NCBI GenBank assembly: GCA_020050835.1 | Contig: JAGVKB010000004.1 | Coordinates: 1-44,281, forward strand | From: Candidatus Obscuribacterales bacterium | GTDB taxonomy: Bacteria; Cyanobacteriota; Vampirovibrionia; Obscuribacterales; Obscuribacteraceae | Direction of reading: 5' to 3' | DNA length: 44,281 nt | Shown here: in pieces, positions 16,170 to 37,807 of the stretch | Layout of the letters: the number at the start of each line of letters is the position of its first letter | Position numbering within the stretch: the stretch's first letter is position 1 | Notes under the pieces: generated by a model | Database searches by the model: none | What the model was told of the DNA's origin: nothing | Seen by the model: only the letters and a program-made list of their open reading frames with translations | Program-made: the position numbers and the translations under genes

Positions 16170-16513
16170 TGCCGCACTCCTTGAATTCTTCTGGCTTGTT
16201 CTTGCTAACTGCTCAGCACACGATAATCCTGCTCCCCCAAGCTGTGTGTGGAAGCAGTACAATCGATCCAGCTGCTGACATTTTACTATGAGAACGTGAA
16301 CTGGCGTGTTCCAGGGATATGAGAGCAAGAGATTGGCAAAATGTTATGTGGTGTTGCGGTAACAGGTCTGGGGTGATTGAAGAGGTGAGGGCTAAATTTT
16401 GAGCAAGGTCCGGCTAATCTGTAAACCGTACCCGTAAGACTTGCAGGGGCGAATGGCTGTAGTTATTGCAGTTGAAGGACAATATTGGGACTGCTGATGA
16501 GGATGGCGAGAAC
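16170..16513. other. Divergent intergenic region
   Basis: About 340 bases between the oxidoreductase (-) and the repeat protein (+). It must hold the promoters of both genes unless longer transcripts enter. The best sigma-70-like pair toward the right is TTGCAG (16441-16446) and TATTGC (16464-16469) with a 17 nt spacer, which is too weak to call. No gene, RNA or repeat is seen. Confidence 0.5.
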
Positions 16514-19408: not shown

Positions 19409-19984
19409 ATGTCTCGACAAATGAATTCACGTAGCCTGGTTAAGTCCAGGGGCTCCAATGGTAACAGCATGCTAGAGCTTCCCGTTTGCCTGTCTGCATT
19501 GTTGTTGTTTGTCGTGTTTCCAATGATTGACCTAAGCACGATGGGAATGAGAGCGCTCACTGTATTCGCGGCAGCAAGGGATGCTGCAAGGTCAGCAAGC
19601 AGAGCTACTAATTACGAGACTGCGAAATCGAAGGCTGTAGCGGCGGCATACCGCTATAGTTCTCCATCCACCAGGATCAATGCTAATGAAGTAAAGACTA
19701 TTTTCGATCGAACCATCACGAATAGTTATGCAGACTGCAGATCTGGTGAGTATCAACGTCCCGTATCCTCAAACCCATTGAAGACACTTTCCGAATCTGA
19801 ATTGGAGCATCAGAGAGTGCTGTTCACATATGAGTGCGAGGTACAGGTAACCGGAGATGTGGAACCACTGTTCCGGCTTAACTCGGCGTTGTTTGGCAGT
19901 GTCCCAGGGGTTACGGTCCCCTGGAGAATTACCGCTTCGAGTCGAGAGTTTGTGGAGCATCCAGACGGGCTGGCAGCAATGTAA
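19409..19984 (+). CDS. TadE-like pilus assembly pseudopilin
   Basis: About 191 residues from ATG 19409, preceded by a GGGGG stretch 8 nt upstream; ATGs at 19403 and 19421 are possible and the frame stays open to 19316. A basic, polar N-terminus is followed by GNSMLELPV and one membrane segment (about residues 21-43), then AAARDAARSASRA. This is the TadE arrangement: a Glu shortly inside the hydrophobic segment and an Ala-Arg-rich helix after it. The exported C-terminal part has two Cys in the middle region. In Flp/Tad systems such minor pseudopilins are processed by a prepilin peptidase and help assemble the pilus at the inner membrane. It is first of three Tad genes; the next starts 38 nt after its stop. 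Confidence 0.75.
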   Translation: MSRQMNSRSLVKSRGSNGNSMLELPVCLSALLLFVVFPMIDLSTMGMRALTVFAAARDAARSASRATNYETAKSKAVAAAYRYSSPSTRINANEVKTIFDRTITNSYADCRSGEYQRPVSSNPLKTLSESELEHQRVLFTYECEVQVTGDVEPLFRLNSALFGSVPGVTVPWRITASSREFVEHPDGLAAM

Positions 19985-20021
19985 TTGGTTGGCGTTTAGC
20001 GATCTTGGTTGGAGGAACATC

Positions 20022-21416
20022 ATGAGTAAGTCATTCCACTGTAAATCGTCACATTCACTGCGTGATGAGCGAGGAGCATTCTCAGCTGTAGCAGCGGCCT
20101 TCGCACTGTTCGTTGTACTACCTATATCAATGTTTGCTTTCGAAATCAGCCATGCCTTGCTTGTGGAAAAGCAATTGAGAGCGGCCGTTGATTCGGCCGC
20201 ATTGGCGGGTGCTCTGGCTTTGAATGGAGAAGTTGATCCGGAAGGGCATCAGCACGAGCCGCAGGCTAAAGAGTCAGCACTTGGAATTTTCCGCAAGTGC
20301 AGCATCAGTGGTAGCAGCCTTTCGAGCGCTCAAAGTGGTAGTACCCAGAGTGACCCGGGTCCCGGAGCCTGCCGATTTGAATTGAAGGCTGAGCATGGTC
20401 AACCAGCGGCGCCCGGGCAAACGAGTGCACCTCCGCCCAGAACGGTAAGGGTTACAGCTGTCTATGGAATGAAACCGCTGTTCGCTCAGTTTTTGGGGAT
20501 CAGGGATGTACCAATTTCAGTCTCATCTAAAGCTGGCATTCCCGCCACTAAGCGTGACATTGTTTTGGTGGTCGACTGCTCCTTTGGTATGGGCCAGGTT
20601 GCAGCCGGTGGTGGTGCAACAGGAATTGACCTGGCCCGAAATACCATCCACGACCTTGTCGATAAAGTGGCCAAGAGTGGCGACACACGGTTTGGATTGG
20701 TAAGTTATTCTTTCGGTGTACCTGGCGGGCCTGGGGGTGACAGCCCGCTAAGACCGGACCATCCTCTCAGGAGATATCTAGAACCGACCAGTCTGAAAAT
20801 GAACGACTTAGGGGCGGACGCGCATGCAATTCACTCGGTAATCAGTGCTCTTGATTATGATCACACCCCAACAGTAAACGCAGCTTATGGCGGTGCCAAT
20901 ACTGCTGCAGGTTTGGAAAAGGCTTATGCGATGCTTAACGGTGACAAACACCGGGTCGATGCGGAGAAGATTATTATTCTCTTCACCGGTGGGCTACCGA
21001 CTGCCAGATACTACTTCGACCAGGAAATCAATGATTGGGTACTGATTGCAGCAGAACAATTGCCGTACCCGGAGTTCCATGACCCTGCTTCAAGCTCGGA
21101 TCCACCGCGTCGATTCCTGAAAGTTCAGAATAACTCGAAGCAAGAAGTAACTGGCGAGCTTCCGTGGACGGCCATGGCGCACTGTGTAAACGAAAACACT
21201 CATACTTGCTACAAGAACGGCATAACAATGTATAGCATCGGGTTCTTGCGCGGCAATAGTGGTGGCGATCACCAGAACGGAAATGCGATGAATTTCTTGA
21301 AAAATATGAAATTCGGTGCGTGGGGGAGAAGCGAGTCGTATTTTGCCGAAAGCCCTAGAGACTTGCTTCATATCAAGATGGAGTTTTTCAATGACATGGT
21401 AGCTCTTCTAGATTAG
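20022..21416 (+). CDS. TadG-like protein with von Willebrand factor A domain
   Basis: 464 residues. The ATG at 20022 has GGAGGA 5 nt upstream; the frame is open further left but overlaps the preceding gene. Residues 17-60 form the TadE/G-type N-terminal membrane helix (RGAFSAVAAAFALFVVLP) followed by VEKQLRAAVDSAALAGALAL, typical of TadG. A von Willebrand A domain follows at about 176-464 (RDIVLVVDCSFGMG). Of the metal-ion-dependent adhesion site, D185-x-S187-x-G189 and T294 (NTAAGLEKA) are present, but the usual Asp of the third loop is Gly323 (LFTGGLPT), so metal binding may be weak or lost. TadG proteins connect Flp pilus assembly with the envelope and may mediate adhesion. Four Cys in the C-terminal half could form disulfides outside the membrane. 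Confidence 0.85.
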   Translation: MSKSFHCKSSHSLRDERGAFSAVAAAFALFVVLPISMFAFEISHALLVEKQLRAAVDSAALAGALALNGEVDPEGHQHEPQAKESALGIFRKCSISGSSLSSAQSGSTQSDPGPGACRFELKAEHGQPAAPGQTSAPPPRTVRVTAVYGMKPLFAQFLGIRDVPISVSSKAGIPATKRDIVLVVDCSFGMGQVAAGGGATGIDLARNTIHDLVDKVAKSGDTRFGLVSYSFGVPGGPGGDSPLRPDHPLRRYLEPTSLKMNDLGADAHAIHSVISALDYDHTPTVNAAYGGANTAAGLEKAYAMLNGDKHRVDAEKIIILFTGGLPTARYYFDQEINDWVLIAAEQLPYPEFHDPASSSDPPRRFLKVQNNSKQEVTGELPWTAMAHCVNENTHTCYKNGITMYSIGFLRGNSGGDHQNGNAMNFLKNMKFGAWGRSESYFAESPRDLLHIKMEFFNDMVALLD

Positions 21417-21500
21417 AGCCTCATCGAGCCGGCTAACAAACTGGCAGAACGAAATATGGGAATCAGTGGAAGTAATTTGAGTTAACCAGGAGTAAGAACC

Positions 21501-21986
21501 ATGTCTACATTTGTATCAGGAAGAAATCAGGACAGAAAGTACTGTGGACGCAAGGAGCGAGGCAGTATGGTCGCAGAACTTGCGTGTGCGATTCCGCTCT
21601 TCGTGCTGGTGTCGCTGATCGGTTTGAACGGTAGTGTACTAGTGATCGGTTCCTGGCTCAACGATACTGCATGTCGTGAGGCCGCAAGAGTTGCCGCTCA
21701 AGAAGAGACGCAAACGCGAGCCGAAAAGACCGTAAACTACATATTGCAACGCTTCAAATCAAATAGTCCCTTATTGCAGAGTCCAGAATTGGTTGCAATC
21801 AAGCATGATACGAGTATGGTACATGAAGGGTTACCCGATCGGACAGAGGGTGGTCCACTTGTGTCTGTAACGACCCAAACTACGGTAACATTACCGGCTC
21901 CAATTCTAATCGGTGCTGATCCAAAAGTACGGTTAGCTCAAACTTACGTGTTTCCGATCGTTCGGATCGACCACCTCAACCGATAG
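21501..21986 (+). CDS. TadE-like pseudopilin
   Basis: 161 residues. ATG 21501 has AGGAG 8 nt upstream. The N-terminus is basic and ends in RKERGSMVAELACAIPL, then a membrane segment (about residues 24-50) and CREAARVAAQEE, the TadE pattern with Glu near the start of the helix. The rest is a short exported beta-rich domain (VSVTTQTTVTLPAP). It closes the tadE-tadG-tadE run (84 nt gap after the TadG-like gene) and probably shares its transcript. Prepilin-like processing is inferred from family knowledge. Confidence 0.8.
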   Translation: MSTFVSGRNQDRKYCGRKERGSMVAELACAIPLFVLVSLIGLNGSVLVIGSWLNDTACREAARVAAQEETQTRAEKTVNYILQRFKSNSPLLQSPELVAIKHDTSMVHEGLPDRTEGGPLVSVTTQTTVTLPAPILIGADPKVRLAQTYVFPIVRIDHLNR

Positions 21987-22259
21987 ACGAGCTATAGGCT
22001 AGCTGCGCAGCCGGAGTTAACGAAGTTCGCATTGTTGAAGGCTATCATTCCGCTAAACTGTCACGCTGTCGCCACGGAGCAACGTTTACGCTTGAAGTAA
22101 GCGAGCTAATCTGGCTGTTTGGTGACACCAATGGCGGTACTCATACCGGTAGAACGGGACAAGAAAGCCAGAAGCTCAACATGGTTGAAAGATCTGTCCG
22201 TTGGAAACATTCAAACTTAGTAGCACACATCGCCGTCGGTAGTGCAAGGGGGAACACAA

Positions 22260-23285
22260 GTGAATACTCAGAACAATTACCAGAGCAGCCTATTCCACCA
22301 AATTCAGCAGTCCAGGTCTTCTCAAGATAGCTTCTACAGAAATGCTCACGCTAACTCTATCAGTAATGCTCAGGAGGAAGCTTCGTTGCATGATTTGAAT
22401 GAAAGACGTAGAATCGCTATAAGTGAACAGCTTCAAGCTGGTGCCCGTGATATCAAGCCAACACAGCAACAAGTCGTAACTGTACCAACATATACGAAGT
22501 TAGTAGCCAGGCAGAACTATTCCGGCTGCTCTGCTGCCTGGAATGGGCTTCCTGGGGACCATAGGGTTCGCTGGAGTGCCTCGTGCAATCATTCAATTTA
22601 CGATGCTTCCGCCATGAGCGAGGACGAACTTCTATCGCAGATCTGGTTTCGCGAGGGAATCCGGCCGGTAGTATTGTATAAGCGGAAGGATGGAACAGTT
22701 CTCTCAAGCCATTGTCAATCAGCAGTACAAAAGGTGCGTTTGATGCAATGGACTGCCGTGGCTGTGTTAGGTTTAGTTGTGATTGTGTGGTTGTTCAGCA
22801 TGGGGTCAGTCAAAGATTCTGGTTCAGGAGTAGGAACTCCGGTCGCAGACAGCTCTGCCCGCCATGCATCGAATTTCAACGGAACGGACTCGAAGGAAGT
22901 AGAGCTGAACTCATCTGTGCAGTTCGATAGCGTGCCACAGGTGCCGGCAACTCCTATTCATCAGTATCGACCGGAAAACGCACAGATGATTCAAGATGTT
23001 GAGCTTTCTTCCAAGTTCGCTCCCGCGGAGGCTAGTTGCAGTAATTTCACTTCTCGAATGGAGTTGCCAAACCAAGTCGGGTTGGAACTTCCAAGAGATG
23101 CTCAATACGATAGACAGAATCAGCTGGCGTCCTCCGCTCCGTCAAATTTATCACTGTTCAATCACAATAATCCCAATGACGAGGTGGTTCAGTCTCCTTC
23201 ACCAGCTGGGAGCTCGACCATGGATGACGATCAGTTCGCATCAAATTCAAGAAGAAGTCATATTTGGGAAGCCTGTAGTCAATAG
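22260..23285 (+). CDS. Cys-domain membrane protein next to Tad genes
   Basis: 341 residues from GTG 22260, with AGGGGGA about 6 nt upstream; the open frame from GTG 22242 lacks such a site. Order: a polar Gln/Ser-rich N-terminus (1-75), a Cys-containing domain (about 85-155), one membrane segment (about 164-183, TAVAVLGLVVIVWLF), and a low-complexity Ser/Asn/Pro-rich tail. The domain has C90-x3-W94, R104, a single Cys at 109 where its paralogue has CxxC, a Tyr-containing strand, REG, then YKRKDGTVLSSHC152. It aligns with the protein at 36773-37807 (C-x2-QW, FRICRQC, REG, YRRKDGKFL, NCPVG). I know this domain as a recurrent uncharacterised cytosolic Cys motif. It follows the Tad run by 273 nt; a regulatory or assembly role in pilus biogenesis is inference. 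Confidence 0.75.
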   Translation: MNTQNNYQSSLFHQIQQSRSSQDSFYRNAHANSISNAQEEASLHDLNERRRIAISEQLQAGARDIKPTQQQVVTVPTYTKLVARQNYSGCSAAWNGLPGDHRVRWSASCNHSIYDASAMSEDELLSQIWFREGIRPVVLYKRKDGTVLSSHCQSAVQKVRLMQWTAVAVLGLVVIVWLFSMGSVKDSGSGVGTPVADSSARHASNFNGTDSKEVELNSSVQFDSVPQVPATPIHQYRPENAQMIQDVELSSKFAPAEASCSNFTSRMELPNQVGLELPRDAQYDRQNQLASSAPSNLSLFNHNNPNDEVVQSPSPAGSSTMDDDQFASNSRRSHIWEACSQ

Positions 23286-24049
23286 TGCGACCATTTGCAC
23301 TGATTTCATGTCACCGTAAGTGGTGCCGGTATTCGGGTTTGTCTTTTGGATACATGCTGAAGGCAAGATGGCAATGCCGGTAGGGAGCTTCCTGATCGTC
23401 ATCGCCTTCTTCCGTGACTATCGTTCGATCCTGGCGAGCACCACATTTGTAGATTCAAAATTCCATTTGGAGTAACGAGTAGACCAGGGCGATCACAGTC
23501 TGGCTCAGGCAGGCTGTCTGCAGATCAGGTAGGAAAAGTCGCGTTAATTCAATCAGCTGATTGCTCTTGAGGCAGCCCGGCCCACTGGAGAGCAAAGAAT
23601 GGCGTGGGATCGCTGCCAGCATCAATGTTTACGAAAATGGTCACGCTACCGCCACGGTTGCCTGAGTAGGGTGGTTGAGGTGGTCGACAAGGTGCTGGCT
23701 ATGACGCTTCACGGGTTTGTAAAACGGTCGGTAAGGGTAAAGATAACGGGGGGACTGAGGTTTGGACAATAGCTGGTCTCGTTGTGATACCCCTGGCAGC
23801 ATGGGTTGCCTCAGTGGCATTCGAGCGGCACTACTGTCCGAAGAATTGATGCCGGATCAGTTCACTAAGGGTAGATGCGTGTCCACGCTCAAGAGAGATC
23901 GGTTAAGCATAGTTGTTTCGGTGAGAGCAGTCAGCTTGCCTAGACTGGTACGTGCGGGTTTCTCAAGCTCTGGTGGTATTGATGACCGAACTGACCAGAA
24001 AGGTGTTAAATGTCTCCTGACTGGGCGATTGAAACGATCAATCAGGCGA
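23286..24049. other. Intergenic region before giant protein 2
   Basis: About 760 bases. The frame of the giant protein is open from 23762 but its upstream part lacks a good ribosome binding site. A 35-codon plus-strand frame (ATG 23368 to stop 23475, GAAGG 5 nt upstream, hydrophobic stretch VGSFLIVIAFF) could be a small membrane peptide but is too short to call. A minus-strand stretch near 23555-23695 reads as protein-like (GGSVTIFVNIDAGSDPTPFF) but has no start codon and an in-frame stop upstream; it may be a gene remnant. No RNA or insertion sequence is seen. Confidence 0.45.
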
Positions 24050-27000
24050 ATGTCTCCTGTCATTTCGGCTCATCTTGGTTTCGTTCGGATGATTGCGTTG
24101 CTGATTGTTCTTGCTATTATCAGTCAACCGGTGGCAGTATGGGCACAGGAAGTGCCCGCTTCATCTGAATCGGCGGTCGCGGCTCAAATCTCGCCTGTAC
24201 TTGGCGCCAATCATTTGGACCTGCACTCTGAAACCGCCAATATTGCGGCAAACAACACTCATCCAGCTAACATAGTGATTGGCGGGGAGCTCGGGACAAC
24301 TGGCACTGTGACCGGAGGTGAAAGCTATTCGGTCAATCCTGGGCAGCTCGTGACTCAAGCACAGTATCTTGCTCTTCAACAAGTGCTGGCGACTGGTAGT
24401 CAGACTTTGTTAATTGGAGGAAATGGAGCTGCCTCCAGCGGTTTTGCCACACTGACGCCAGCAGCTACTGCCAGTCTAGCTTCGTTGAGCATACCCGCCA
24501 ATGTCGCTGTTCACTCGATTGGATTCTCTGCTGACAGCCCATTCAATGTCACTGGTTCGGGCAACATCCAGGGAGCGCTGTATGCCATGCAAACAGGTGC
24601 AGGGGTCTCTGCAGTATTGAATTTTGGCAGCCTGAACGTTGGAGCCAGCGGGTTGATCTCCGGATATCTACCATCGGTGCTCGGATCGAACTCAAGCTTC
24701 TTTGCCTCAAGCGGTTTAGACATCAACGTTGTTCACAATCTAGTCAACTCTGGCACAATCACCACTCCTGGCACATTGAGTGTCAACACTGGCGGATCAA
24801 TCTTCAACCAGTCACTGGCAGGCACCCAAGCGGTAATGAGTGCTGAGAGTATCAACCTGGCAGTTAACATGAGTAGCCTGGTTAACACAGGGCTGATGCA
24901 AGCATTGCAGAATGTGAACATTACGGGAGCGGCAACTGGTAACTTAAAGATTGACAATACTGGTGGCGTGTTGCAGGCACTCAACGGCAACATCAATCTT
25001 AGAGACAAGTTGTTTAACGGTTCTGGCAATACAGCGTTCCTGGGCGGTGATGTTTTATCGAGGGAATTGAATATGTTTGGTGGCGCTGGCAATGTACTGC
25101 TTAACGCCAACAATGTGTCTGGGCTAGTTAGCGCCTCCGGATACGGTATTCAACTCCATGCCGAAAAGCTAACTACTGCCTCACTTGTTGCAACTGGTGA
25201 TCCTCTGATCACAAGCAACACTTCTCACACAATTGCGGGTGACATTGTCACCAATGGTAATCCCCTCACTATTATCGCTAAACAAGATATAAGCGGTGGA
25301 GCCGGCTTCAGGATTGACACCAGTGCTGCAACAGGAAGTGGAGGCGAAATACTGCTTGTAGCGGGTGCTGAGTTTCAACCGGGAGCAGCAGCTGATACTC
25401 TAGAGATTACCGGACGCTCTGGGTTAGGCGGCAGTATTAATCTGCCAAACCTGCTTGCGTTTGACTCGCGCGGCGGGACTGATGCAGGTACGCAAAATGC
25501 CAATGGCGGCAATCAGACCTTGATTGCTTATGCCAACTCGCCTGGCGGTACTAGCGGTGGCGAGATCACAGTCACCCCGAAAGACCTACTCACCTTTTTC
25601 CCGCTGACGACCGGCGGGGATGGCACAGGGACTAACGGTAACTTGCTCATTATAAGCGAAGGTACAAACACTCTCGGTAACCAGAATGATGTGACAGTGC
25701 CGCACATTAATACATCTGGTGGCTCAGGTGGCGGTGGCACGATCACTATAGCGACCGCGACACCGGAAATTAGTGGGTTCGTAAATCCAGTAATCATCAT
25801 CAATGACTGTCCGGCATGCGCTGAGCAAGGAGCCATCATTAGCGGATCCTTCAGTCCTGACTTTGCATCGATCACGAATTCCAGCATATTTGTTCGGGAG
25901 TTCGTTTCGAATGGCGCAAACATAAGTGTTTTTGCTGGCGACGGATTCAACCTGTTTACTCCGAGTGGATTAAACACACTGGTGAGCGCTAGTCGGGTCA
26001 ACGGTGATGGCCCTGGTGGAAACATCCTTGTACTTGCTGCTCTATCGGATAGCGCTACTGACCGTCAGCTCGGACAGGATGATATCGAGTTTCTGGCAAA
26101 TGCGAATGGCGCTGGTGCTGGCGGTAACATCAATCTGATCTCTAGAGCTGATATAGATTTTGACCATGTTGTATCAATCGGAGCGGATACCGGCAACGGG
26201 GGCGAAATATTAATTGTAGCCGGAGCCGAAGTTGCCGTAATGGCAAGCACAGTGACAATCACAGGACAGTCATCTTTTGGCGGGGACCTGGATGGGGATG
26301 GCTCTCACCCAACACTGGGAACGACAGTGCAGTCACTAGGTGGTACCAGTAATGGCAGCGGAGGGGATATCTCGCTGATAGCGTTTGAAGGTATGACTGG
26401 TGATGCTGATTCAGGTAGAATCAGAACGCATCCTGGAGCGTTTGTCACATCCAATGGACGTGGCATCGGCAGCAATGGCAATATTGTCCTTGCTGCCGGA
26501 GACGATGATGCCGGCCCGCCTGTGTTTAGTATTGATATTGGTTTGCTTGGTTCCGGTCTTGCAGCAAGCACTGCTGCTGGCGGAGCAATTCGAGTTGCTA
26601 CTAGCACTCCTCAAATCGTAGGTGGCAGCGTAGTTATCAGCGCATTAGACGGTAGTTCAGTCGGCTCATTCGCCATAGACACGTCTCAGTCGGCCATCCA
26701 GGCAGCAAGTGTGCGACATGGACGACAGTTTAGTAATGGCGGAGACATAACGCTCATTGCCGGGGAGAATATCGTTTCCCGGGCGGGGTTCACTGATAAT
26801 GATTTGAAAGCAACGCGTACTTTCGGAAGCGGATCAGGCGGGAATGTTCTTGTGCTGGCTGGCGCTGCCTCAGCTGCTACAGAAGGAAATATTGCACTGG
26901 GAGGCGCCGCGTCCTGGACGGCGAGTGCTGGAGCAGCCGGAAAGATTAATATCATCGCCCGGGGTAACCTTCAACTCGCCAATACGGTCTTTGGTCAAGC

Positions 27001-30000: not shown

Positions 30001-31144
30001 AAGGTGCACAATTGAAACGGAAATGGGACAGATAACAGTTCCCAGCGAATGTGTCGCGATTGTTGAGAAGGCGCCCGGTGAGTCGACCCTGAAGGTGACA
30101 ACGATAGCAGGTGAGGCTGTTCAAGTCGCTCTATCGACTGGAGGGGGAACAACTGTTCCGGTTCGAGCTGCTTACGAGCTGTCATTTAACTTTGCCAAGC
30201 CAAAGCTTAATAGCATTGATGAACTGACGCATCAATCAAGTACAGACCGCAAGGCAGATAGTGCGGCGATCGGCATTGACCGGCGCAAGATTGATCCCTA
30301 CAGTGTTATGAATGACTTCGAGGCGTTCGAATGTAGATTTAATTGTGTGGAGTCTTTGAAAGGTGCGGAAGACGGTTCTTTGAAAGACTTTGTTTCCAAA
30401 CACTGGGGAGTTACAAGAGCAAGCTCGATGCTACCGGTTGAGTATCGTAACACATCGCTTCGACAGGCAGTCTTGTTGAGTTCCGAGGAACTAGACTGTT
30501 ATCAGCTGAGCGGTGCTGGCAATGACGCCGGCATGTCCCCGAATCATGCCGATGTTATGCGAACGTGGATCAGCGATTCCGCAGAGATTCGTTATCTCGA
30601 GCCGGTCAACCTCTCAATCGGTGAGGAAGCATCATTTACGATTGGGTCCGGTGAAGTCCTTGTATTGGCTCGACAGAAAGTAATCCTCAAATCTGGCAAT
30701 CATATTTTCTCGATAGCACCAGGAACAATTGCTCTAGTTAAGCATGATGGAGAGCTGACAAAAGTTCGAAATCTTTGTGAAACGAAGCTAAAGTCGATCG
30801 AAACCACAGTATTCAATCGCCGAGTACTCCTAACGGCGGGAATGGAGATAATTTTCGGGAACAAGCACTCTGACTTTAGCAAACATATCGGTGATGCTAT
30901 GGCTCGACGTGACATTCAGAGAACTGATTTTAGCGATGGTCAGGCAATCATGGTATCGGATATCAATCTAGTAACTCTCATGAACAACTCTTCTCTGCTC
31001 AAGCAGATCATTAACAGCCGGGTGAAATCAAATCGTGCGGTTTCTGAACGAATTATGCTTATGGCTGCTTGCTTGCATCTAGTAACTGGCAAGCGCGGAC
31101 CATACATGACTGCTCCTTACATAATGGCAACCAATCCGCGGTAG
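24050..31144 (+). CDS. Giant beta-helix surface protein with signal peptide and FecR-like C-terminus
   Basis: 2364 residues from ATG 24050 (MSPVISAHLGF). The hydrophobic core at residues 14-28 and VWA-QE at 30-34 make a signal peptide; no strong ribosome binding site is seen, and in-frame starts at 23762, 23849 and 24089 remain possible. A first exported domain (about 35-160) is followed by ~1700 residues of Gly/Ser/Asn-rich beta-helix coils, including four ~275-residue long-period repeats. I see no clear TPS (two-partner secretion) motif. From about 29160 the sequence matches the end of giant protein 1: the last coil (QGGGIGVYAG), a VISLDPP junction, GPCQPYY, a FecR-like segment (GQITVPSECVAIVE), a second one (SIAPGTIALVKHDG), and the tail NLVTLMNNSSLL. 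A CPAC pair lies at 25808-25819. Probable exported surface adhesin. The histidine kinase follows after 66 nt. Confidence 0.9.
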   Translation: MSPVISAHLGFVRMIALLIVLAIISQPVAVWAQEVPASSESAVAAQISPVLGANHLDLHSETANIAANNTHPANIVIGGELGTTGTVTGGESYSVNPGQLVTQAQYLALQQVLATGSQTLLIGGNGAASSGFATLTPAATASLASLSIPANVAVHSIGFSADSPFNVTGSGNIQGALYAMQTGAGVSAVLNFGSLNVGASGLISGYLPSVLGSNSSFFASSGLDINVVHNLVNSGTITTPGTLSVNTGGSIFNQSLAGTQAVMSAESINLAVNMSSLVNTGLMQALQNVNITGAATGNLKIDNTGGVLQALNGNINLRDKLFNGSGNTAFLGGDVLSRELNMFGGAGNVLLNANNVSGLVSASGYGIQLHAEKLTTASLVATGDPLITSNTSHTIAGDIVTNGNPLTIIAKQDISGGAGFRIDTSAATGSGGEILLVAGAEFQPGAAADTLEITGRSGLGGSINLPNLLAFDSRGGTDAGTQNANGGNQTLIAYANSPGGTSGGEITVTPKDLLTFFPLTTGGDGTGTNGNLLIISEGTNTLGNQNDVTVPHINTSGGSGGGGTITIATATPEISGFVNPVIIINDCPACAEQGAIISGSFSPDFASITNSSIFVREFVSNGANISVFAGDGFNLFTPSGLNTLVSASRVNGDGPGGNILVLAALSDSATDRQLGQDDIEFLANANGAGAGGNINLISRADIDFDHVVSIGADTGNGGEILIVAGAEVAVMASTVTITGQSSFGGDLDGDGSHPTLGTTVQSLGGTSNGSGGDISLIAFEGMTGDADSGRIRTHPGAFVTSNGRGIGSNGNIVLAAGDDDAGPPVFSIDIGLLGSGLAASTAAGGAIRVATSTPQIVGGSVVISALDGSSVGSFAIDTSQSAIQAASVRHGRQFSNGGDITLIAGENIVSRAGFTDNDLKATRTFGSGSGGNVLVLAGAASAATEGNIALGGAASWTASAGAAGKINIIARGNLQLANTVFGQANQVIDANNYGSGSAGDVLLLAGAEFTTSSTIVTTSGPSAIGGSVIWTLDKEIRAGKVGGSGNGGSIQFIAYEGSGLNSGQVKGPGSPTSVIDVSGAGAGSMGSVIIAAGDDDASGADSINIGSVNSSGGSGSVGAIDIATSTPLMTAATVQVDFSNGVNTGGFAINRNTAAIQNASINMQSLVSNGGSVVVFAGNNITALPVGTNPKVDSSRSTGSGSGGSILMVAGVSPLSISGTGLNINIDDAVAANGNGTGARNGGNISVVAREGITLRSLSSNGADTGSGGQLNIVAGASFTVTSTSVSVSSQSQAGGLIDITGGGNPVTSLGGASNGNGNNLFLIAFEGTVGTVNSGGVRTHPGGTIITEGQGSGSNGNVVIAAGDTDGPGGTPAIRIGLIDTGGGIGAQGGTGGGGTIRISTATPVIVGGTVTISQSTAAISSGTFDIGTSAASIQNGNFSSQSLSSNGADITIIAGNDIITPVTNNIVASRAAGTGGGGSLSLTAGAAVTPSDGSATISSMSSEAAGASGFSAGNISVRAKAGIAITGTLPPAGTSSILASGTGNAADGDISLQTLAGGVSIFGDVIANGFLTSGSATGSGGSVTLTSNSGSVSIAATRSVNGSGNVTLQAGAGITVGDGASIDAGRLTAAAESQLTLLGAGTVLRSGSIGLDTFVMGGGSGDIEIGNNVKATSRGGSIGVLASVDIAVGANAILSARAGYLWLSAGDDIAIDAGAQLQSIGKLSDAGGSFTTSNGARIANYQGGGIGVYAGMLATSVPDALSAQIGQRSTANSISVVGTSFDQSLPSLFGGSSIVGQFTSLSKNSLLNPSPSDIDPANGNMYTLNGGVISLDPPDPFNSIVFTGISLLSIGPIALPDVITPTIVDAGGSGVRPVRGFVVAREQLPTNGLVPTDLTPRDVGPISQLYTYCQPRTLLMPVSASQVKESGCESWRVAAGPCQPYYMENSSGVAIIGSHGATLAATGPTSVSLQSGKIVIVASGKERCTIETEMGQITVPSECVAIVEKAPGESTLKVTTIAGEAVQVALSTGGGTTVPVRAAYELSFNFAKPKLNSIDELTHQSSTDRKADSAAIGIDRRKIDPYSVMNDFEAFECRFNCVESLKGAEDGSLKDFVSKHWGVTRASSMLPVEYRNTSLRQAVLLSSEELDCYQLSGAGNDAGMSPNHADVMRTWISDSAEIRYLEPVNLSIGEEASFTIGSGEVLVLARQKVILKSGNHIFSIAPGTIALVKHDGELTKVRNLCETKLKSIETTVFNRRVLLTAGMEIIFGNKHSDFSKHIGDAMARRDIQRTDFSDGQAIMVSDINLVTLMNNSSLLKQIINSRVKSNRAVSERIMLMAACLHLVTGKRGPYMTAPYIMATNPR
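25637..28930 (+). repeat. Four ~275-residue repeats in giant protein 2
   Basis: A landmark strand (GNIVLAAGDDDAG in copy 2) recurs at 25637 (diverged), 26477, 27305 and 28118; spacings are 840, 828 and 813 nt. Each unit also carries IATSTP, a GGDITLIAGENI-type strand, GSGSGGNVLVLAGA and a SLGGxSNGxGxxxxLIAFEG strand. Copies 2-4 hold an acidic GDDDA or GDTDG turn that could bind a cation. The outer boundaries are approximate. Confidence 0.75.
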
Positions 31145-31210
31145 GAGTTAAGGTAGAGTCTGAGAGATGTACTGGCCGGTTGGTGCGGTGCACGTAATCA
31201 CAATGGGTCA

Positions 31211-33427
31211 ATGAATGCGTTTTGGAGGTACGGTAAGCTGACAAAGGCGAAACCACAACTGCAGCTCAAGCTGGCTCACAAAGGATTGATACTCGTTTGC
31301 TTACCGTTGTTTTTCGAGTTGGTCTTCGTTGCTGTGCTGGGAATGCTTCTCGAGCAGGCTGATAATGCTCGCAGTAAAGAAGTCCGCTCGAAATCGATCA
31401 TTGCTCAGGCAAGTGAGCTGATAAAGCTCTCGCATGATGCTTCCTCTGGACCGGTGAATTATGGATTTACCGGCGCTCAAGAGGTATTGGAGTCATATGA
31501 CAATGCAGTGAAAGAGTTCCCAGTTTTGTTTAGAACTCTCAAGGAGCTTACTAAGGACAATCCGGTCGAACTTGCGATGGTAACGGCAGCTGAGACCGAT
31601 GGAACTAAGGCTGTGTCGATGCTTACTGAGTATCGGAGCTTGATCGAAAATGAAGACAGGGTCGGACTGATGCGCGAGATCGAGCTAAAGGGTCCCGCAA
31701 TCCGCAAGCTGCTCGATCGTTTTTCAGTGGATCTAAGAAGCTTGATGAGCTTGGAGCAGCAGGTTGAAAAGGCAAGCCCCGAAGCGGAGTCACACTGGCG
31801 GGCGCTGGTCAGCAAGTGCCTGCTGGGTGGCACGTTTGTAAACATTGCGCTGGCAATGTACATGGCAATCTTTTTCATTACTAATGTGGTGAACAGGCTT
31901 CTCACTCTTACCGACAACTCCCTGAGACTGGGCAAAGGGGAGAAGTTGAATGTGCCGCTGCAAGGCAACGATGAGATCGCCATTCTGGATCGATGCTTTC
32001 ACGAAATGGCTAGGGAACTGGCCGAATCAGATGAGAAGGAACGCGCAATTCTGGAGAACACGCTCGACGTAATCTGCACGATCGACGCCGAAGGCAAGTT
32101 CTCGAAGGTGAGTCCGACTTCCGAAAGGGTTCTTGGATATACTCCCGAGGAGCTGATCGGCACAAGTTACACGAGTTTGCTGGTGTCTGAGGAAGTTCTG
32201 AGGAGCCAGAGTGAAATGGAGAAGGCGATGAAAAGCAATAGTCGCGTCTCGTTTGAAAACACAGTGATTCATAAGAGCGGACTGCGGATTAACGTACTGT
32301 GGTCGGTCTATAGGTCTGTGCAAGATCAGTCGGTATTTTGTGTGGCTCACGACATTACGACACGAAAAATGGCGGAGAATGCTTTGCGGGCAAGTGAAGC
32401 CAGGACGCGGGCCATACTAGAAGGAATGCCAGCTGGATTACTCATTTTGACTCCCATCGGAGTGATCGAGCAGACTAATCCCAAAGTCGAAGAGATGCTT
32501 GGTTATAGCGCCGTCGATCTAATGGGAAAGGGCCTTGTATGGTTGCTACATAATCATCCGAATCAAACCTTCTCCGGCTTCATGAATGCGCTCCGGCAGA
32601 AGGAAATTGATGGCATCAGCCATTGGGCGTTCATTCGTAGCAACGGATCGCTGCTCTCCACTGAGATGTCGATCAAGGAGTTTGCGTCCAGTGACGGTCC
32701 ACGGTTGCTGGCTATTATTCTGGATGTGTCTGAGCGGCAGAAGTTCGAGAAGCTCAAGAAGGAGTTTGTTTCGATGGTAAGCCATGAACTCAGAACACCT
32801 CTTACATCGATTCGTGGATCACTAGGCTTGGTCAATGTTGGTGTTTTTGGTCAAGTGCCTCAGCGCGCTAGCGAAGCCATTCTCGAAGCTGAGAAGGCAA
32901 GCGTCAGGTTGGTCAATCTGATAAACGACCTGCTCGATCTGCAGAAGCTGGAAAGCGGTCAGTTCGAGATGCACTTCGACAAAGTTAAGATATCTTCGGT
33001 GGTCGAGCGTTCATTGGAATCAGTGCGTGGCTTCGCCGATCAGCACAATATCAGAATTGATGTCGATGCGGCGGAGTCAAGCGTTCAGGCGGATGAAGAC
33101 AGGTTGGTTCAAGTGCTAGTCAATTTGCTGTCAAATGCAATCAAGTTCTCACCGGCTGGAGAGCAAGTTATGGTAAAGGTGGCGAAAATGGACGAGTCAG
33201 TGCGCTTTCAGGTTCAGGACCACGGACGAGGAATTCCAGCTTCTCATAAAGACTTGATTTTTGAACGTTTTCAACAGATCGAGCAGTCTGATTCGCGTGA
33301 GAAAGGTGGTACTGGCTTGGGTCTGGCAATATGCAAAGAGATTATTGAACGCCATGGCGGCGTTATTGGCGTGGAAAGTGTGGAAGGGAAAGGAAGTACC
33401 TTTTGGTATCAGGTTCCCGGAGCTTAG
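31211..33427 (+). CDS. Membrane sensor histidine kinase with two PAS domains
   Basis: 738 residues. Membrane segments at about 25-47 and 203-225 enclose a ~155-residue extracytoplasmic helical sensor domain of CHASE3-like look. Then come HAMP (226-278), PAS (279-387, ICTIDAEGKFSKVSP), a second PAS (399-509), HisKA with phospho-acceptor His525 (SHELRTPLTSIRGSL), and the ATPase domain with N-box (LLSNAIKFS), G1 (DHGRGIP, 670-676) and G2 (GGTGLGLAI, 699-707). There is no receiver domain of its own. The ATG at 31211 has only a weak ribosome binding site. The stop overlaps that of the convergent OmpR-type regulator by 4 nt. It is the natural partner of the CheY-HPt-OmpR operon on the other strand, which is inference from position. 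The gap from the giant protein (66 nt) allows co-transcription with it. Confidence 0.93.
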   Translation: MNAFWRYGKLTKAKPQLQLKLAHKGLILVCLPLFFELVFVAVLGMLLEQADNARSKEVRSKSIIAQASELIKLSHDASSGPVNYGFTGAQEVLESYDNAVKEFPVLFRTLKELTKDNPVELAMVTAAETDGTKAVSMLTEYRSLIENEDRVGLMREIELKGPAIRKLLDRFSVDLRSLMSLEQQVEKASPEAESHWRALVSKCLLGGTFVNIALAMYMAIFFITNVVNRLLTLTDNSLRLGKGEKLNVPLQGNDEIAILDRCFHEMARELAESDEKERAILENTLDVICTIDAEGKFSKVSPTSERVLGYTPEELIGTSYTSLLVSEEVLRSQSEMEKAMKSNSRVSFENTVIHKSGLRINVLWSVYRSVQDQSVFCVAHDITTRKMAENALRASEARTRAILEGMPAGLLILTPIGVIEQTNPKVEEMLGYSAVDLMGKGLVWLLHNHPNQTFSGFMNALRQKEIDGISHWAFIRSNGSLLSTEMSIKEFASSDGPRLLAIILDVSERQKFEKLKKEFVSMVSHELRTPLTSIRGSLGLVNVGVFGQVPQRASEAILEAEKASVRLVNLINDLLDLQKLESGQFEMHFDKVKISSVVERSLESVRGFADQHNIRIDVDAAESSVQADEDRLVQVLVNLLSNAIKFSPAGEQVMVKVAKMDESVRFQVQDHGRGIPASHKDLIFERFQQIEQSDSREKGGTGLGLAICKEIIERHGGVIGVESVEGKGSTFWYQVPGA

Positions 33428-34113
33428 GACTTGTCTAGGTCGCCAGATTCGAGCATATACCCCAGGCGTGACACAGTGCTAATTAACGATGGTTGTCCGG
33501 GACGATCCGTCTTCTGTCTAATTCGCTTAACGAAAGTACGAACACTGTCCGGAACTATCATCGACTCCGATGGCCATACTCTCGCCGTTAATGCTTCGGT
33601 GCTGAATACTTGGTCTGGGTGCCGCATGAAAAATTCCAGAAGAGTAAACTCGGCCGGCTGCAATTGAACATGCTTGCCTGCAACGGTCACCTTGAACATC
33701 TTGGGGTCGAGTTCGATGTCGCGAATTTTTAGCCTGGACTCTGTCAATTCCGGCTGTCTGCGGAGCAAAGCTCGAATTCGTGCAGCTAGCTCTCTAGACT
33801 CGAATGGCTTAGTGAGATAGTCGTCTGCTCCGGCATCAAGACCGGCCTCTTTGTGTTCTAGTTGGCTCATCGCGGTAAGCATTAAGATAGCCGTCTTACC
33901 CCCTGAAGCGCGATACTGCTTCAGTACATCTACTCCGGGTAGTCCTGGTAATCCCCAGTCTAGAATGATCAGGTCATACTCGTTAAATCTCAGCTGCGTC
34001 AGAGCTTCGTGCCCGTTCGGAACCATGTCGCTAGTATGGCGCATCGATGCCACCACTTGTCTAATCAACTCGGTGAAAAACTGATCATCCTCAACAACAA
34101 GTATCTTTGCCAT
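33424..34113 (-). CDS. OmpR/PhoB-type response regulator
   Basis: 229 residues. The receiver domain is at 1-120, with acidic pocket E8-D9-D10, phospho-acceptor Asp52 (LIILDWGLPG), the switch Thr at about 80 and Lys102 (DDYLTKPFE). A winged-helix DNA-binding domain of OmpR type covers about 130-225 (EFTLLEFFMRHPDQVFS, RTFVKRIRQKTD, STVSRLGYML). It should activate or repress genes when phosphorylated. It is the last gene of a three-gene minus-strand operon, 36 nt after the HPt gene, and is tail to tail with the histidine kinase. Targets are unknown; the neighbouring surface-protein genes are obvious candidates. Confidence 0.93.
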   Translation of the reverse strand: MAKILVVEDDQFFTELIRQVVASMRHTSDMVPNGHEALTQLRFNEYDLIILDWGLPGLPGVDVLKQYRASGGKTAILMLTAMSQLEHKEAGLDAGADDYLTKPFESRELAARIRALLRRQPELTESRLKIRDIELDPKMFKVTVAGKHVQLQPAEFTLLEFFMRHPDQVFSTEALTARVWPSESMIVPDSVRTFVKRIRQKTDRPGQPSLISTVSRLGYMLESGDLDKS

Positions 34114-34149
34114 CTTAGACCACTCAATTGCTCGCGATAAGTCGGAACG

Positions 34150-34476
34150 TCAGCATTTATTACTCTCGGCTGATTCGACCTCTGCCTTGAGACGATCGAG
34201 TAGCGTCTGCCAGGCAGAAATCATTCTAGTGTCCGGCGTAGTCTCGTGCTTCTTAACGGACAGACAGATTCTCTCGCAAGCTCGTCCCAACTTCGATATC
34301 GTCGGGTAGCCGCAAGTGCCGCCCGCTCCTGCGAACCAATGAAATCGGTGGATCATCTCTTCGACGTCGTCTGGTTGGGTCGCCGCGGACTTCATATGAT
34401 TCAGGCAATCCTCGGTTTCTTGACAGTAACGCTTGGCTTGACTGAAGAAGAGGTCCACTAATTGTTTATTCATCAT
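34150..34476 (-). CDS. HPt (histidine phosphotransfer) domain protein
   Basis: 108 residues, a single HPt four-helix domain. The active motif is H46-W-F-A-G-A-G-G-T-C-G-Y, matching the HxxxGxxGTxGY pattern of HPt proteins, followed by the ISKLGRACE helix. The ATG at 34476 has GGAG 9 nt upstream; a second ATG at 34473 is possible. It would shuttle phosphate between receiver domains, here most simply between the CheY-like protein encoded 37 nt upstream and the OmpR-type regulator 36 nt downstream. It is cytoplasmic. Confidence 0.85.
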   Translation of the reverse strand: MMNKQLVDLFFSQAKRYCQETEDCLNHMKSAATQPDDVEEMIHRFHWFAGAGGTCGYPTISKLGRACERICLSVKKHETTPDTRMISAWQTLLDRLKAEVESAESNKC

Positions 34477-34513
34477 AGACTTTAACTCCAGTCAGTTTAG
34501 CTGACTTGCTTGA

Positions 34514-34882
34514 TTAGGGAGTGGCAAGCAAGTTCTTGAGCGCTCCAGGCAATTCACGCGGGTCGAATGGCTTGACTAAAACGCCAACTGCCCCCAATTC
34601 CTTGAGCCTGTCTACTTCGCTCTTCAATACTTTGGCGGTCAGAAAGACGATTGGAATGTCCTTTGTGCTGGCTTCGCTTCTCAGTGCAGCCATTGTAGAC
34701 ACTCCGTCCATAACTGGCATCATCACATCTAGAAGAATTGCATCAGGCTTTTCCGATTGAGCGATTGTGATGCCAACCTCGCCACGATTTGCTTCAACAA
34801 CTTCCAAACCGCCTATCTCGGAAAGACTTACGCGTATGATGCTCCTAATGACGTCATCGTCCTCGATAACCAGTATCTTCAT
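34514..34882 (-). CDS. Single-domain CheY-like response regulator
   Basis: 122 residues from ATG 34882 (MKILVIEDDD); the frame stays open to 34930, but the longer form adds a non-conserved stretch. There is no clear ribosome binding site at either start. The receiver has E7-D8-D9, phospho-acceptor Asp52 (ILLDVMMPVMDG), Thr82 (FLTAK) and Lys104 (VLVKPFDP). No output domain is present, so it acts by phosphotransfer or protein contact. It is the first gene of the CheY-HPt-OmpR operon and divergent from the YbjQ-family gene. Confidence 0.92.
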   Translation of the reverse strand: MKILVIEDDDVIRSIIRVSLSEIGGLEVVEANRGEVGITIAQSEKPDAILLDVMMPVMDGVSTMAALRSEASTKDIPIVFLTAKVLKSEVDRLKELGAVGVLVKPFDPRELPGALKNLLATP

Positions 34883-35077
34883 TACGATAAATACGTGTCT
34901 CTCTGCTATTGTCCCTTGATTCTGTACCACGTATCTGAAGTCTTGAAACCCCGATACTTATACGCCTGAAGGTCGGGCGCTTTAGTTCAAATGCTGTCGC
35001 CTCGAGTTTTACTTGGTCAATCTTCCGGGCACATTGGCGAAGGATGCTGAATCATTTCGTTTCATTGGAGGATTGTC

Positions 35078-35593
35078 ATGGACAAGAGATTGCTGGCAGT
35101 GGCAGTGCAGCTCTTGGTGCTGACTTCGGTTCAATGTGCGTTTTCGAGACCTGCTGTCAGTAAAGGCACACGCGCGATTGCAGATCAATCTGACGAGTCT
35201 GCAACTGACGTGACACCTGCAGTTATTACACCAGCTACACAGACCTATGTGCTAGCAACCACTACGCCCAGTATCGATGGTTACCGAGTGAAGGAATACA
35301 AGGGATTCGTCAGGGGTGTAATGGTAAGACAGCCAACCGTCGGGCAGGGACTTGCTGCCAATTTAGAGCGAATCGTAGGCGGTAAAGTCGGAGCATATCT
35401 GGCGATGTGTGATACGGGGCGGCAGCAAGCATATGATCTTTGCGTGGAGCATGCCAGATTGCTGGGAGCAAATGCGGTGCTAGGCATGGCCTACGACAGC
35501 ACGGCATTTGAACATGGCGATGATCTGGAAGTCGAGATTGTTTGCTATGGGACCGCAGTTGTGATTGAGCCTATCAACAAATCCTCGAAATAA
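35078..35593 (+). CDS. Exported YbjQ/UPF0145-family protein
   Basis: 171 residues. ATG 35078 has GGAGG 6 nt upstream. A hydrophobic N-terminus (LLAVAVQLLVLTSVQC) looks like a signal peptide; the Cys at 20 lacks a canonical lipobox. A ~35-residue Ala/Thr-rich linker leads to a YbjQ (DUF74) domain at about 58-166: TTPSIDGYRV, KGFVRGVMV, then HARLLGANAVLGMAYD and a final VVIEP strand. Family members form small pentameric rings and are usually cytoplasmic proteins of about 105 residues with no settled role, although a heavy-metal-binding label is used in databases. An exported version is unusual. Divergent from the phosphorelay operon. Confidence 0.85.
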   Translation: MDKRLLAVAVQLLVLTSVQCAFSRPAVSKGTRAIADQSDESATDVTPAVITPATQTYVLATTTPSIDGYRVKEYKGFVRGVMVRQPTVGQGLAANLERIVGGKVGAYLAMCDTGRQQAYDLCVEHARLLGANAVLGMAYDSTAFEHGDDLEVEIVCYGTAVVIEPINKSSK

Positions 35594-35731
35594 TACCGGC
35601 ATCTTTGGCTGTATCATCGTGGTTCAGTTGGACTGGCATCGCCCAGTTCTTAGTGACATTATATGTAGTATCAGCTCTTGGGCAGTGTCTTTGCTTGCGG
35701 TGCTACCGGCAGCGGCAATTGGAGCTGCTGC

Positions 35732-36535
35732 TCATTTGTTGTACATACAGCATCCAGGAGTGCTGCCTACGGATGCAAGCGGTTGCTCGGCGCCGCCTGG
35801 TGCATTGTAAGCGTCATGTGGGGCATATCCGCTCAAAACGACATTGACAGTTCCAAATCCGTTCGAGTTTGGAACATTGCCCATGCGAGGAATGCCAGGC
35901 AGCTGCATACTGTCGTTGGCCTCGCTGTTCTGTCCGGTGACTTCGTTGTTTTTGACTATTCCGTAGAGCGGCATGTAAAAGGCGGCTGAATCGCTTGGGT
36001 TTCCTGGATTGTAGAAGTAGATGGATCCTACTAAATTTGCTTTTGATTCTGATGCATTGCTGGCGATTCCTGATGCTCTCAATGTGATACCAGTCGGGAA
36101 TACCCCTCCTGCCAACATGAGTCCGCCAACTCCGATGTCTACCCGCGCGATGTTATAAGTCCTCGCGTCGGCGCCGGTTCCAGCCGTCACGGTGCCGGGA
36201 GTAACCTTAAAGCCGGCTTCTCCCGGCAGTGTCTTTCCCAGCCCGACTGCGTTTAGCATGCCGTCGGCAACCGCACGAGCGTGGGCTGCCGACTTGGTAG
36301 GGTCGTAGTCCCGTCGTTCCATTCCGAGCCAATATTGATCGGTCACCATGTATTTGGCTGATTCGTTGGCAATGATGTGGAGCTTCTCGTAGTAGCTACC
36401 CATAATCGTCGTGTTGAGAATTAGCAGCAACATGCCTACTCCCAGGCAGGTGAGCAGAACCAGGGTGGCGGTGCCTTCGGCTAACGCCTGACCAGACGGG
36501 TTGCGGTCATGCCGCAATTTAGGTGAGCACGTCAT
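35732..36535 (-). CDS. TadE/TadG-like pilus assembly protein
   Basis: 267 residues from ATG 36535, chosen for GGAGG 7 nt upstream; the frame is open to 36556. The basic N-terminus is followed by GQALAEGTATLVLL and a membrane segment (about residues 15-42), with Glu at the start of the helix as in TadE/G minor pseudopilins, then SYYEKLHIIANESAKYM. The exported domain (about 60-267) is Gly/Asn-rich with no recognised fold; a CC pair lies near the C-terminus (TPGCCMYNK). It lies 237 nt downstream of the Cys-domain membrane protein gene on the same strand. Confidence 0.75.
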   Translation of the reverse strand: MTCSPKLRHDRNPSGQALAEGTATLVLLTCLGVGMLLLILNTTIMGSYYEKLHIIANESAKYMVTDQYWLGMERRDYDPTKSAAHARAVADGMLNAVGLGKTLPGEAGFKVTPGTVTAGTGADARTYNIARVDIGVGGLMLAGGVFPTGITLRASGIASNASESKANLVGSIYFYNPGNPSDSAAFYMPLYGIVKNNEVTGQNSEANDSMQLPGIPRMGNVPNSNGFGTVNVVLSGYAPHDAYNAPGGAEQPLASVGSTPGCCMYNK

Positions 36536-36772
36536 TTCTGTTCCTCCCCTGACCATGCGATCTCGTTCCAGTGAGCCGAAAGTATGTGATGCTTCCCAAG
36601 CACTCCAGGGTAGGTACGGCTAGAGTGTAAGCTACCGAGAAATGGATGTCTGATAACTGGTGATTGAACCATCAACTCTCTACCATCCTACCCGGAGTTG
36701 TTATTGTTGGACGTCCAGCGAGCAAATCACATTGCCAGTTGCAGGCACGATGTCATCGGGAGCGACGAAGGG

Positions 36773-37807
36773 CTACCTGTATTCCTTAACGTAAGGATTT
36801 CCGGATGGTTGAGGCGTTTCAGATGCTGGTTGTTGAGCTTGTCCGGTCGAAGATTGAGCTGGAGCTGCAAGCTGTGTTTGAGTTGTGTATGAAGTGTCAT
36901 TGGTCGTTACCGGTGCGACACGAGTTTCAGCAGCCGGAGGGCCGACGAGTTCATTCGGCTGGAAGGTGTTCTCAGGGATTGTGCCTTTAGCAGATTGACT
37001 CGGGATTTCGGTTGCAGCAGGTAATTCCGGCTGTATTTCCGGTTGGGGTGTCGGCCCCAACCTAATTGTTCCTTGGCGCAAAACATTGGATGGACCGCTG
37101 CTGCGAGCCGGCGTAGCAGCGGTAGTCTTCATTGCGCCAATTGCTGCATGAACTGTCTGAGGGGCAACTGAGTCTGACTCAGCCGGTCTTGCATCGTTTG
37201 GTGTGGAGATAACTACCGGCCGCGGTGGCGGAGCCAGTACGGCTATTGCAATTGCAATGATTGCCACGAGTACACCAGCTGTAATGAGTCCCGCAGTCGT
37301 CATTGATTGTTTCACGCCGACTGGGCAATTGCTGGTAAGAAACTTTCCGTCTTTCCGCCGATAGAAGCTCTGATTCTCCTTTCCTTCTCTTTTAATAACC
37401 AGCTCTTTGGCGTCGGCGACGTCAATGCCTGCGAAATTGTAAACATGAAGACCGCACTGGCGGCAGATCCGAAATGCTTCTGTTCCAGACATGTCTTCCC
37501 ACTGGGCCCGACAAGGTGCGGCATTCTTGTAGTCGGCGATCGGCGATATCTTCTTGAAGGCTTCAGATGGAGCTGTTAGGACTATTTCCTTTTGCTCCTC
37601 CTTCTTGGCCGTCGTGTCAGCGGCTACCTTCCGGCAAGCCTCTAGATCGAGCGTAGTCCGCAGGCACACTCCATCCAGCTTCTTAAGAGTACGGTTCACC
37701 GCTCCCTTCAGGGCCCTGAAGTTTGCCGGCGGCGGTGGCGGCATAAAGTCAGCCGGATTAACCTTGGAAGCGTCCGAGTCAGAAGCTGCTGCTTCCCCGT
37801 CAGCCAT
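36773..37807 (-). CDS. Cys-domain membrane protein with Pro-rich tail
   Basis: 344 residues. ATG 37807 has AAAGGAG 8 nt upstream. Order: acidic and Pro-rich N-terminus (FMPPPPPANF), a helical stretch with two Cys (C48, C58), the Cys domain at about 95-167 (C99-x2-QW, FRIC115RQC118, VYNFAG, REG, FYRRKDGKFLTSNC161PVG), one membrane helix (about 171-192), and a ~150-residue Pro/Gln/Thr/Ala-rich outer tail. The four Cys, two of them as CxxC, could bind a metal ion or cycle redox state. Its paralogue at 22260 has lost the first Cys of the pair. Both genes sit beside TadE/G-like genes, so a role in Tad pilus assembly or control is suggested but unproven. Confidence 0.8.
   Translation of the reverse strand: MADGEAAASDSDASKVNPADFMPPPPPANFRALKGAVNRTLKKLDGVCLRTTLDLEACRKVAADTTAKKEEQKEIVLTAPSEAFKKISPIADYKNAAPCRAQWEDMSGTEAFRICRQCGLHVYNFAGIDVADAKELVIKREGKENQSFYRRKDGKFLTSNCPVGVKQSMTTAGLITAGVLVAIIAIAIAVLAPPPRPVVISTPNDARPAESDSVAPQTVHAAIGAMKTTAATPARSSGPSNVLRQGTIRLGPTPQPEIQPELPAATEIPSQSAKGTIPENTFQPNELVGPPAAETRVAPVTTNDTSYTTQTQLAAPAQSSTGQAQQPASETPQPSGNPYVKEYR

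Follow-up and report, generated by a model that had tools for sequence, protein, structure and literature searches.

The closest described counterpart of the genes considered here is the Kil/Tad pilus of Myxococcus xanthus. According to passages of its description, one pilus can carry any of four paralogous TadEFG-like complexes (KilLMN Tips 1-4) as its interchangeable tip, and the route by which a tip is selected is called still unclear by the authors (PMC12075869). Proteins with forkhead-associated (FHA) domains are over-represented in the same system (PMC8460266). A canonical tad/flp locus combines tadZABC, rcpC and tadV with tadEFG. Here we characterize a family of membrane proteins with a four-cysteine (Cys) domain, two members of which lie beside TadE/G-like minor-pilin genes in a 44,281-nucleotide stretch of DNA from a Candidatus Obscuribacterales bacterium (contig JAGVKB010000004.1, assembly GCA_020050835.1), which as a whole is called the window. 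These are protein 1 (22260-23285), which follows tip module 1, and protein 2 (36773-37807), which belongs to tip module 2.

As in M. xanthus, one genome holds several paralogous minor-pilin clusters, the large TadG-like pilin is extended by additional domains, and FHA proteins are found around the system. In contrast to M. xanthus, for which the passages of PMC12075869 mention no Cys-domain membrane partner, most modules here are paired with such a protein (about 25 copies), Ser/Thr kinases lie nearby, and single-pilin modules occur. The canonical arrangement is represented by one core set (G000, contig C114); unlike in a canonical locus, however, the TadE/G-like and Cys-domain genes are found outside it. 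The papers searched, among which most subscription papers were not included, describe no comparable tie between a particular membrane protein and particular tip modules, and those on pili of Melainabacteria offered nothing on point. As shown below, one subfamily of the Cys-domain proteins, the DGKF form, shows a genetic link to TadE/F/G-like minor-pilin modules that are scattered over Obscuribacterales genomes.

Results

The 7.01-Mb genome that contains the window encodes 25 copies of the Cys domain, both window proteins among them, and the domain is present in 41 of 53 Obscuribacterales genomes. In a phylum-wide sample it occurs in just 2 of 292 genomes, the source genome included, so that its pairing with Tad genes is testable in this one order. 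The DGKF form accounts for 61 of the 76 genes collected; in its members a long N-terminus and a T-x-L-D segment precede the Cys domain, which is followed by a membrane helix and a Pro/Ser/Ala-rich tail with a median length of 130 residues. Members of the classic form, represented in the own genome by L028 and L029, carry a DGT motif, are shorter and sometimes tandem, and mostly lack T-x-L-D. Protein 1 forms a small divergent group with L030 and L031.

For the neighborhood analysis, blind BLAST clustering was applied to the genes that surround 71 domain genes. The clusters that recurred were TadE-like and TadG-like proteins, FHA proteins, a small secreted protein, receiver/kinase proteins and histidine kinases. 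This comparison had been set beforehand as one that could have spoken against an association with Tad genes, and the association was found: a TadE/G-like gene lies within 4 kb of 42 of the 56 DGKF genes (14/18 in the own genome and 28/38 in others; 23 genomes) and of all three genes resembling protein 1, versus 2 of 12 classic genes. The two classic genes with such a neighbor (L016 and L060) are DGKF-like in other features. One own-genome copy, L011, was lost to the open reading frame (ORF) filter and is left out of these counts; inspection by hand found a TadE-like gene, a receiver-kinase and a T-L-L-D motif all present.

Further comparisons, starting from the pilins, point the same way. Pfam profiles locate 19 separate TadE/Tad sites in the own genome, 8 of which have a domain gene at a distance of no more than 5 kb, where 0.7 would be expected (P 1e-7). 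Across the order, a TadG clade defined by at least 560 bits to profile A4 comprises 29 sites, and a domain gene is located within about 6 kb at 25 of these; the remainder are two sites cut by contig ends and two without a domain gene, so that 25 of 27 intact sites have it. Loci of other TadG types, hand-picked from the same search, have a domain gene in 0 of 9 cases. Finally, the domain is present in 27 of 27 genomes with this TadG clade, and the clade in 0 of 12 genomes without the domain (Fisher P 4e-5, uncorrected for kinship). The pairing is maintained in about a dozen genera. Modules of the TadG clade are also repeatedly accompanied by a small, conserved secreted protein (cluster 8; L085:9659-10249 and 13 relatives), which may be a further component.

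The core Tad machine is encoded elsewhere. Contig C114 carries one Tad-type core with RcpC-like and TadZ-like proteins, TadA, two single-domain T2SSF proteins (TadB/C) and a TadV-like prepilin peptidase, the names other than TadA and T2SSF having been assigned by reading the sequences. There is no TadE/G-like gene among these core genes and no Cys-domain gene in the surrounding 20 kb. Of the 53 genomes of the order, 52 encode a TadA relative, which in most of them shows about 80% identity; a second one, at 45-50%, is present in many. Since the core tad genes lie elsewhere, the TadE/G-like genes have the appearance of scattered tip modules for one or two machines, and the Cys-domain proteins of the window are not components of a canonical tad locus. 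The original prediction of a dedicated partner of the pilus machinery is thus supported by a link that recurs across the order, goes far beyond chance and is confined to a single subfamily and a single TadG clade; it has to be amended in that the link is to dispersed tip modules rather than to the core, and in that the wider domain family is not bound to Tad.

The two window proteins had been predicted to share a domain of about 70 residues directly before a single membrane helix, and this is borne out. BLASTP aligns them across the domain with an E value of 5e-5, and protein 2 as sole query of the whole genome retrieves protein 1 at E 1.6e-5 together with 23 further copies; a profile built from its domain recovers family members. 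The common core reads C-x3-W ... R-x-C-x2-C ... VYD/N ... E ... R-E-G ... Y-[KR]-R-x-DG ... C-P-V-G. Among 63 aligned relatives, C66, W70, C85, Y90, R118, D120 and C128 are invariant (numbering of the modeled stretch) and C82 is kept in 61, so that the zinc-ribbon-like C..CxxC..C layout is seen in 61-63 of the 63 sequences; protein 1 has serine in place of C82 (RWSASC), as does just one other sequence. An AlphaFold2 model based on the 63 sequences (mean pLDDT 91.4) shows a helix at 22-45, a small alpha/beta Cys domain at about 60-126 and, in agreement with hydropathy, the membrane helix at 129-158.

Neither window protein has an accepted match in Pfam or NCBIfam, Pfam likewise has none for the 63 relatives, and a sequence search of the Protein Data Bank (PDB) with the Cys domain gave no convincing match. 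Fold comparison returned a best E value of 1.0 with Foldseek and Z scores of at most 3.8 with VIA (rmsd 3.8, 67 aligned), mainly to kinase N-lobes, which we take as chance. As all four cysteines are near-invariant, they probably form a structural zinc site. Apart from the cysteines, nothing supports the earlier proposal that the protein senses metal or redox state on the cytoplasmic side of the pilus. We regard such a sensor as very improbable, as invariance of the whole quartet suggests a structural site, the first copy in the window lacks one cysteine, and redox or metal genes do not recur among the neighbor clusters.

The mean net charge is +2.8 just before the helix and -0.2 after it; with basic residues before the helix and on average none after it, the Cys domain is predicted to be cytoplasmic and the tail to lie on the outer side. 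The proteins thereby resemble TonB-like envelope-spanning proteins, with one helix, a Pro-rich stretch predicted to be periplasmic and a conserved C-terminal element. They differ from these in the predicted cytoplasmic Cys domain and in a short aromatic motif that replaces the folded TonB C-terminal domain, which Pfam does not find in the window proteins. The tail often ends in such a motif (GVWQRPR, PYVKEYR, GxFWxF, YVWDA). In 59 tails, aromatic residues make up 8.4% of the last 22 positions versus 3.3% of the rest (P 4e-14), and tryptophan is enriched 7-fold (P 2e-12), although these P values, like those for the motif and kinase enrichments, treat related sequences as independent.

The Cys domain itself is not Tad-specific, with classic forms in other phyla. 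A related-locus search with tighter alignment (six loci) recovered relatives in Verrucomicrobiota and Myxococcales records, which share with L028 and L029 the same four cysteines, the tryptophan, the tyrosine and the R-x-DG core, followed by a membrane helix. These classic-type domains differ from the DGKF form in that DGT is the rule, T-x-L-D is mostly absent, Tad neighbors are lacking, and the outer parts are modules such as TonB_C, as in L062 (5636-6316), or SAF, as in L068 (5947-7441), with tandem copies in one genome. The SAF part of L068 is also matched by the CpaB pilus model.

A T-x-L-D motif lies about 45 residues N-terminal of the Cys domain in 52 of 58 DGKF proteins, compared with 1.6 expected after shuffling, and most of those without it are cut by contig ends. 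The motif falls into the pT-x-x-D ligand class of the Rad53 FHA1 domain (PMC3146460). In other genomes, 18 of the 38 DGKF genes have an FHA gene no more than 4 kb away (Pfam FHA E 2e-18). In the own genome, 13 of the 73 Ser/Thr kinases are encoded no farther than 4 kb from a domain gene (P 4e-7), as are 10 of the 27 kinases that have the size of a receiver-kinase fusion (P 4e-9). An observation apart concerns an exceptionally large predicted protein of the same genome, an open frame of 17,447 codons with four FHA-domain matches (G000, C138:42474-55610).

That signaling genes adjoin the domain genes, and that at many loci domain and pilin genes diverge from a common intergenic stretch, would also suit a membrane-anchored regulator, whose tail would sense tip pilins or the envelope and whose Cys domain would act on transcription or on a kinase, thereby switching the neighboring tip genes. 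Yet the orientation varies, with both genes on the same strand in both window clusters, and the Cys-domain protein has no helix-turn-helix, no known DNA- or RNA-binding fold and no fold match in the PDB; we consider such a regulator unlikely, though still worth considering.

The features of the window are listed in Table 1. Module 1 (19409-21986) comprises three pilins, including a TadG with a VWA domain whose start codon was inferred from the sequence. The original prediction had placed TadE/G-like genes beside both Cys-domain proteins. For module 1 this is confirmed by the Pfam Tad match, which is accompanied by a VWA match and weaker TadE hits. The pilin of module 2 is matched by no Pfam or NCBIfam model and is called TadE-like from its signature (a G|QALAEG prepilin-type site with helix) and predicted layout alone, a 54-residue helix followed by a beta-sheet head, with low confidence in the C-terminal 75 residues. 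In fold comparison it aligns with the pseudopilin 2ret_A (Z 4.8, rmsd 3.7, 84/84 residues), although unrelated chains score higher.

Table 1. Minor-pilin modules, Cys-domain proteins and signaling genes of the window
Feature	Position	Strand	Evidence and remarks
TadE-like minor pilin, tip module 1	19409..19984	+	GNSMLELPV... helix; Pfam TadE E 0.19; NCBIfam TadE_Rv3655c E 0.0013
TadG-like large minor pilin with VWA domain, tip module 1	20022..21416	+	Pfam Tad E 4e-5 (above cut-off), VWA E 5e-8
Second TadE/F-like minor pilin, tip module 1	21501..21986	+	NCBIfam TadE_Rv3655c E 1.7e-5, below cut-off
Cys-domain membrane protein 1, divergent type	22260..23285	+	Second Cys is Ser; without T-x-L-D; tail end SHIWEACSQ
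Cys domain of protein 1	22518..22733	+	Profile match, 94 bits
Signaling genes beside module 2	31211..34930	mixed	CHASE3/PAS histidine kinase (+); OmpR-type regulator, Hpt, receiver (-)
Single TadE-like minor pilin, tip module 2 (SGQALAEG...)	35732..36556	-	Prepilin-type signature common to 19 aligned relatives; predicted pilin-like layout
Cys-domain membrane protein 2, DGKF subfamily	36773..37807	-	Genome search; domain profile
PYVKEYR, C-terminal aromatic motif of the Pro-rich outer tail of protein 2	36776..36796	-	Aromatic enrichment among 59 tails
Membrane helix of protein 2	37226..37288	-	Hydropathy; predicted helix 129-158 of modeled stretch
Cys domain of protein 2	37307..37525	-	Profile, 115 bits; AlphaFold2 pLDDT >90; four Cys, W, Y, R, D (nearly) invariant
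T-T-L-D (T-x-L-D motif) of protein 2, candidate pTxxD FHA site	37646..37657	-	Motif in 52/58 DGKF-type proteins
Response regulator-Ser/Thr kinase fusion, divergent neighbor of protein 2	38099..39430	+	Pfam Response_reg E 3e-26, Pkinase E 4e-54

Other genes of the window are recorded here for completeness. Between the pilin and regulator genes of module 2 lies a YbjQ_1 family protein (35078-35593; putatively heavy-metal-binding, Pfam E 2e-25) with a signal-like N-terminus. Module 1 is flanked by two giant ORFs, 79-14364 (4761 aa) and 23762-31144 (2460 aa), neither of which has a Pfam match at E 0.001; the former is rich in Gly/Ser/Thr repeats and looks surface-exposed. A 508-aa protein (16466-17992) consists of long near-identical repeats (YKDGKKI... 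DGTPDMIKHSDGS) and has a Pfam RHS_repeat match.

Discussion

What can be said about the role of the DGKF proteins? Our preferred, though tentative, reading is that of a tip-dedicated inner-membrane adaptor under the control of threonine phosphorylation. In the scheme that we infer, the tips encoded by the modules would be interchangeable on the one or two Tad machines of the cell, and each Cys-domain protein would be the inner-membrane adaptor of its own tip. The four-Cys domain, probably with structural zinc, and the T-x-L-D segment would lie on the cytoplasmic side, with the single helix as anchor, and the Pro-rich tail would extend into the envelope, where its terminal aromatic motif may touch tip pilins or the assembly complex. 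Signals passing through histidine kinases and receiver-Ser/Thr-kinase fusions could lead to phosphorylation of the threonine of T-x-L-D, and FHA proteins reading the phosphothreonine could then cause the tip to be released to pilus assembly or held back.

The tight link to one TadG clade and the outer tail with its conserved end would equally be expected of a chaperone or assembly factor devoted to one tip, which would hold minor pilins at the membrane or dock them there without any signaling, the kinases and FHA proteins being bystanders in a kinase-rich genome. Such a factor, however, would have no need of a conserved T-x-L-D and a Cys domain in the cytoplasm, and the kinases cluster around domain genes above the high background of a genome with 73 of them; this simpler role therefore seems to us improbable, if still deserving consideration.

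Several observations weigh against a phosphorylation-controlled adaptor. About a quarter of the DGKF genes have no TadE/G neighbor in reach, the wider Cys-domain family does other things, and protein 1 of the window is without T-x-L-D and one of the cysteines. The T-x-L-D motif is located in a stretch of lower confidence just before a predicted helix, so that its aspartate could simply serve to cap that helix. All 20 FHA matches of the own genome are located away from the domain genes. Furthermore, co-divergence between adaptor and adjacent pilin is weak in the own genome (mirror-tree, Mantel r 0.16, P 0.04), and across genomes the mirror-tree test is confounded by species. This weak co-divergence, in a large genome with many paralogous families, is what would be expected if both families merely hitch-hiked in expanded, shuffled clusters without a common function. 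Such hitch-hiking is nevertheless highly improbable, because the pairing persists in about 12 genera, concerns a single subfamily and a single TadG clade, and does not extend to the classic subtype.

Interchangeable tips, Tad machines, control by FHA proteins and kinases, and Cys4 domains are each of an already known kind; the new element is the tie of a particular membrane protein to particular tip modules, repeated here in about 25 copies. In its furthest extension, the adaptor scheme would amount to an undescribed class of tip selectors, in which each of some 15-25 Tad tips per cell had its own adaptor. Receiver-Ser/Thr-kinase fusions would phosphorylate the conserved threonine of the adaptor and FHA proteins would read it, whereby signals from the environment would pick the tip that the Tad machine mounts; this we put forward as a doubtful possibility. 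Independently of it, the analysis defines a widespread four-Cys membrane domain that is unnamed in the profile libraries searched. The question of tip selection becomes testable with a membrane-spanning family that accompanies certain tip genes and has a candidate phospho-switch. For the Obscuribacterales, it points to an unusually large tip repertoire, with about 15 modules having such a partner in one genome, which is relevant to attachment or predation.

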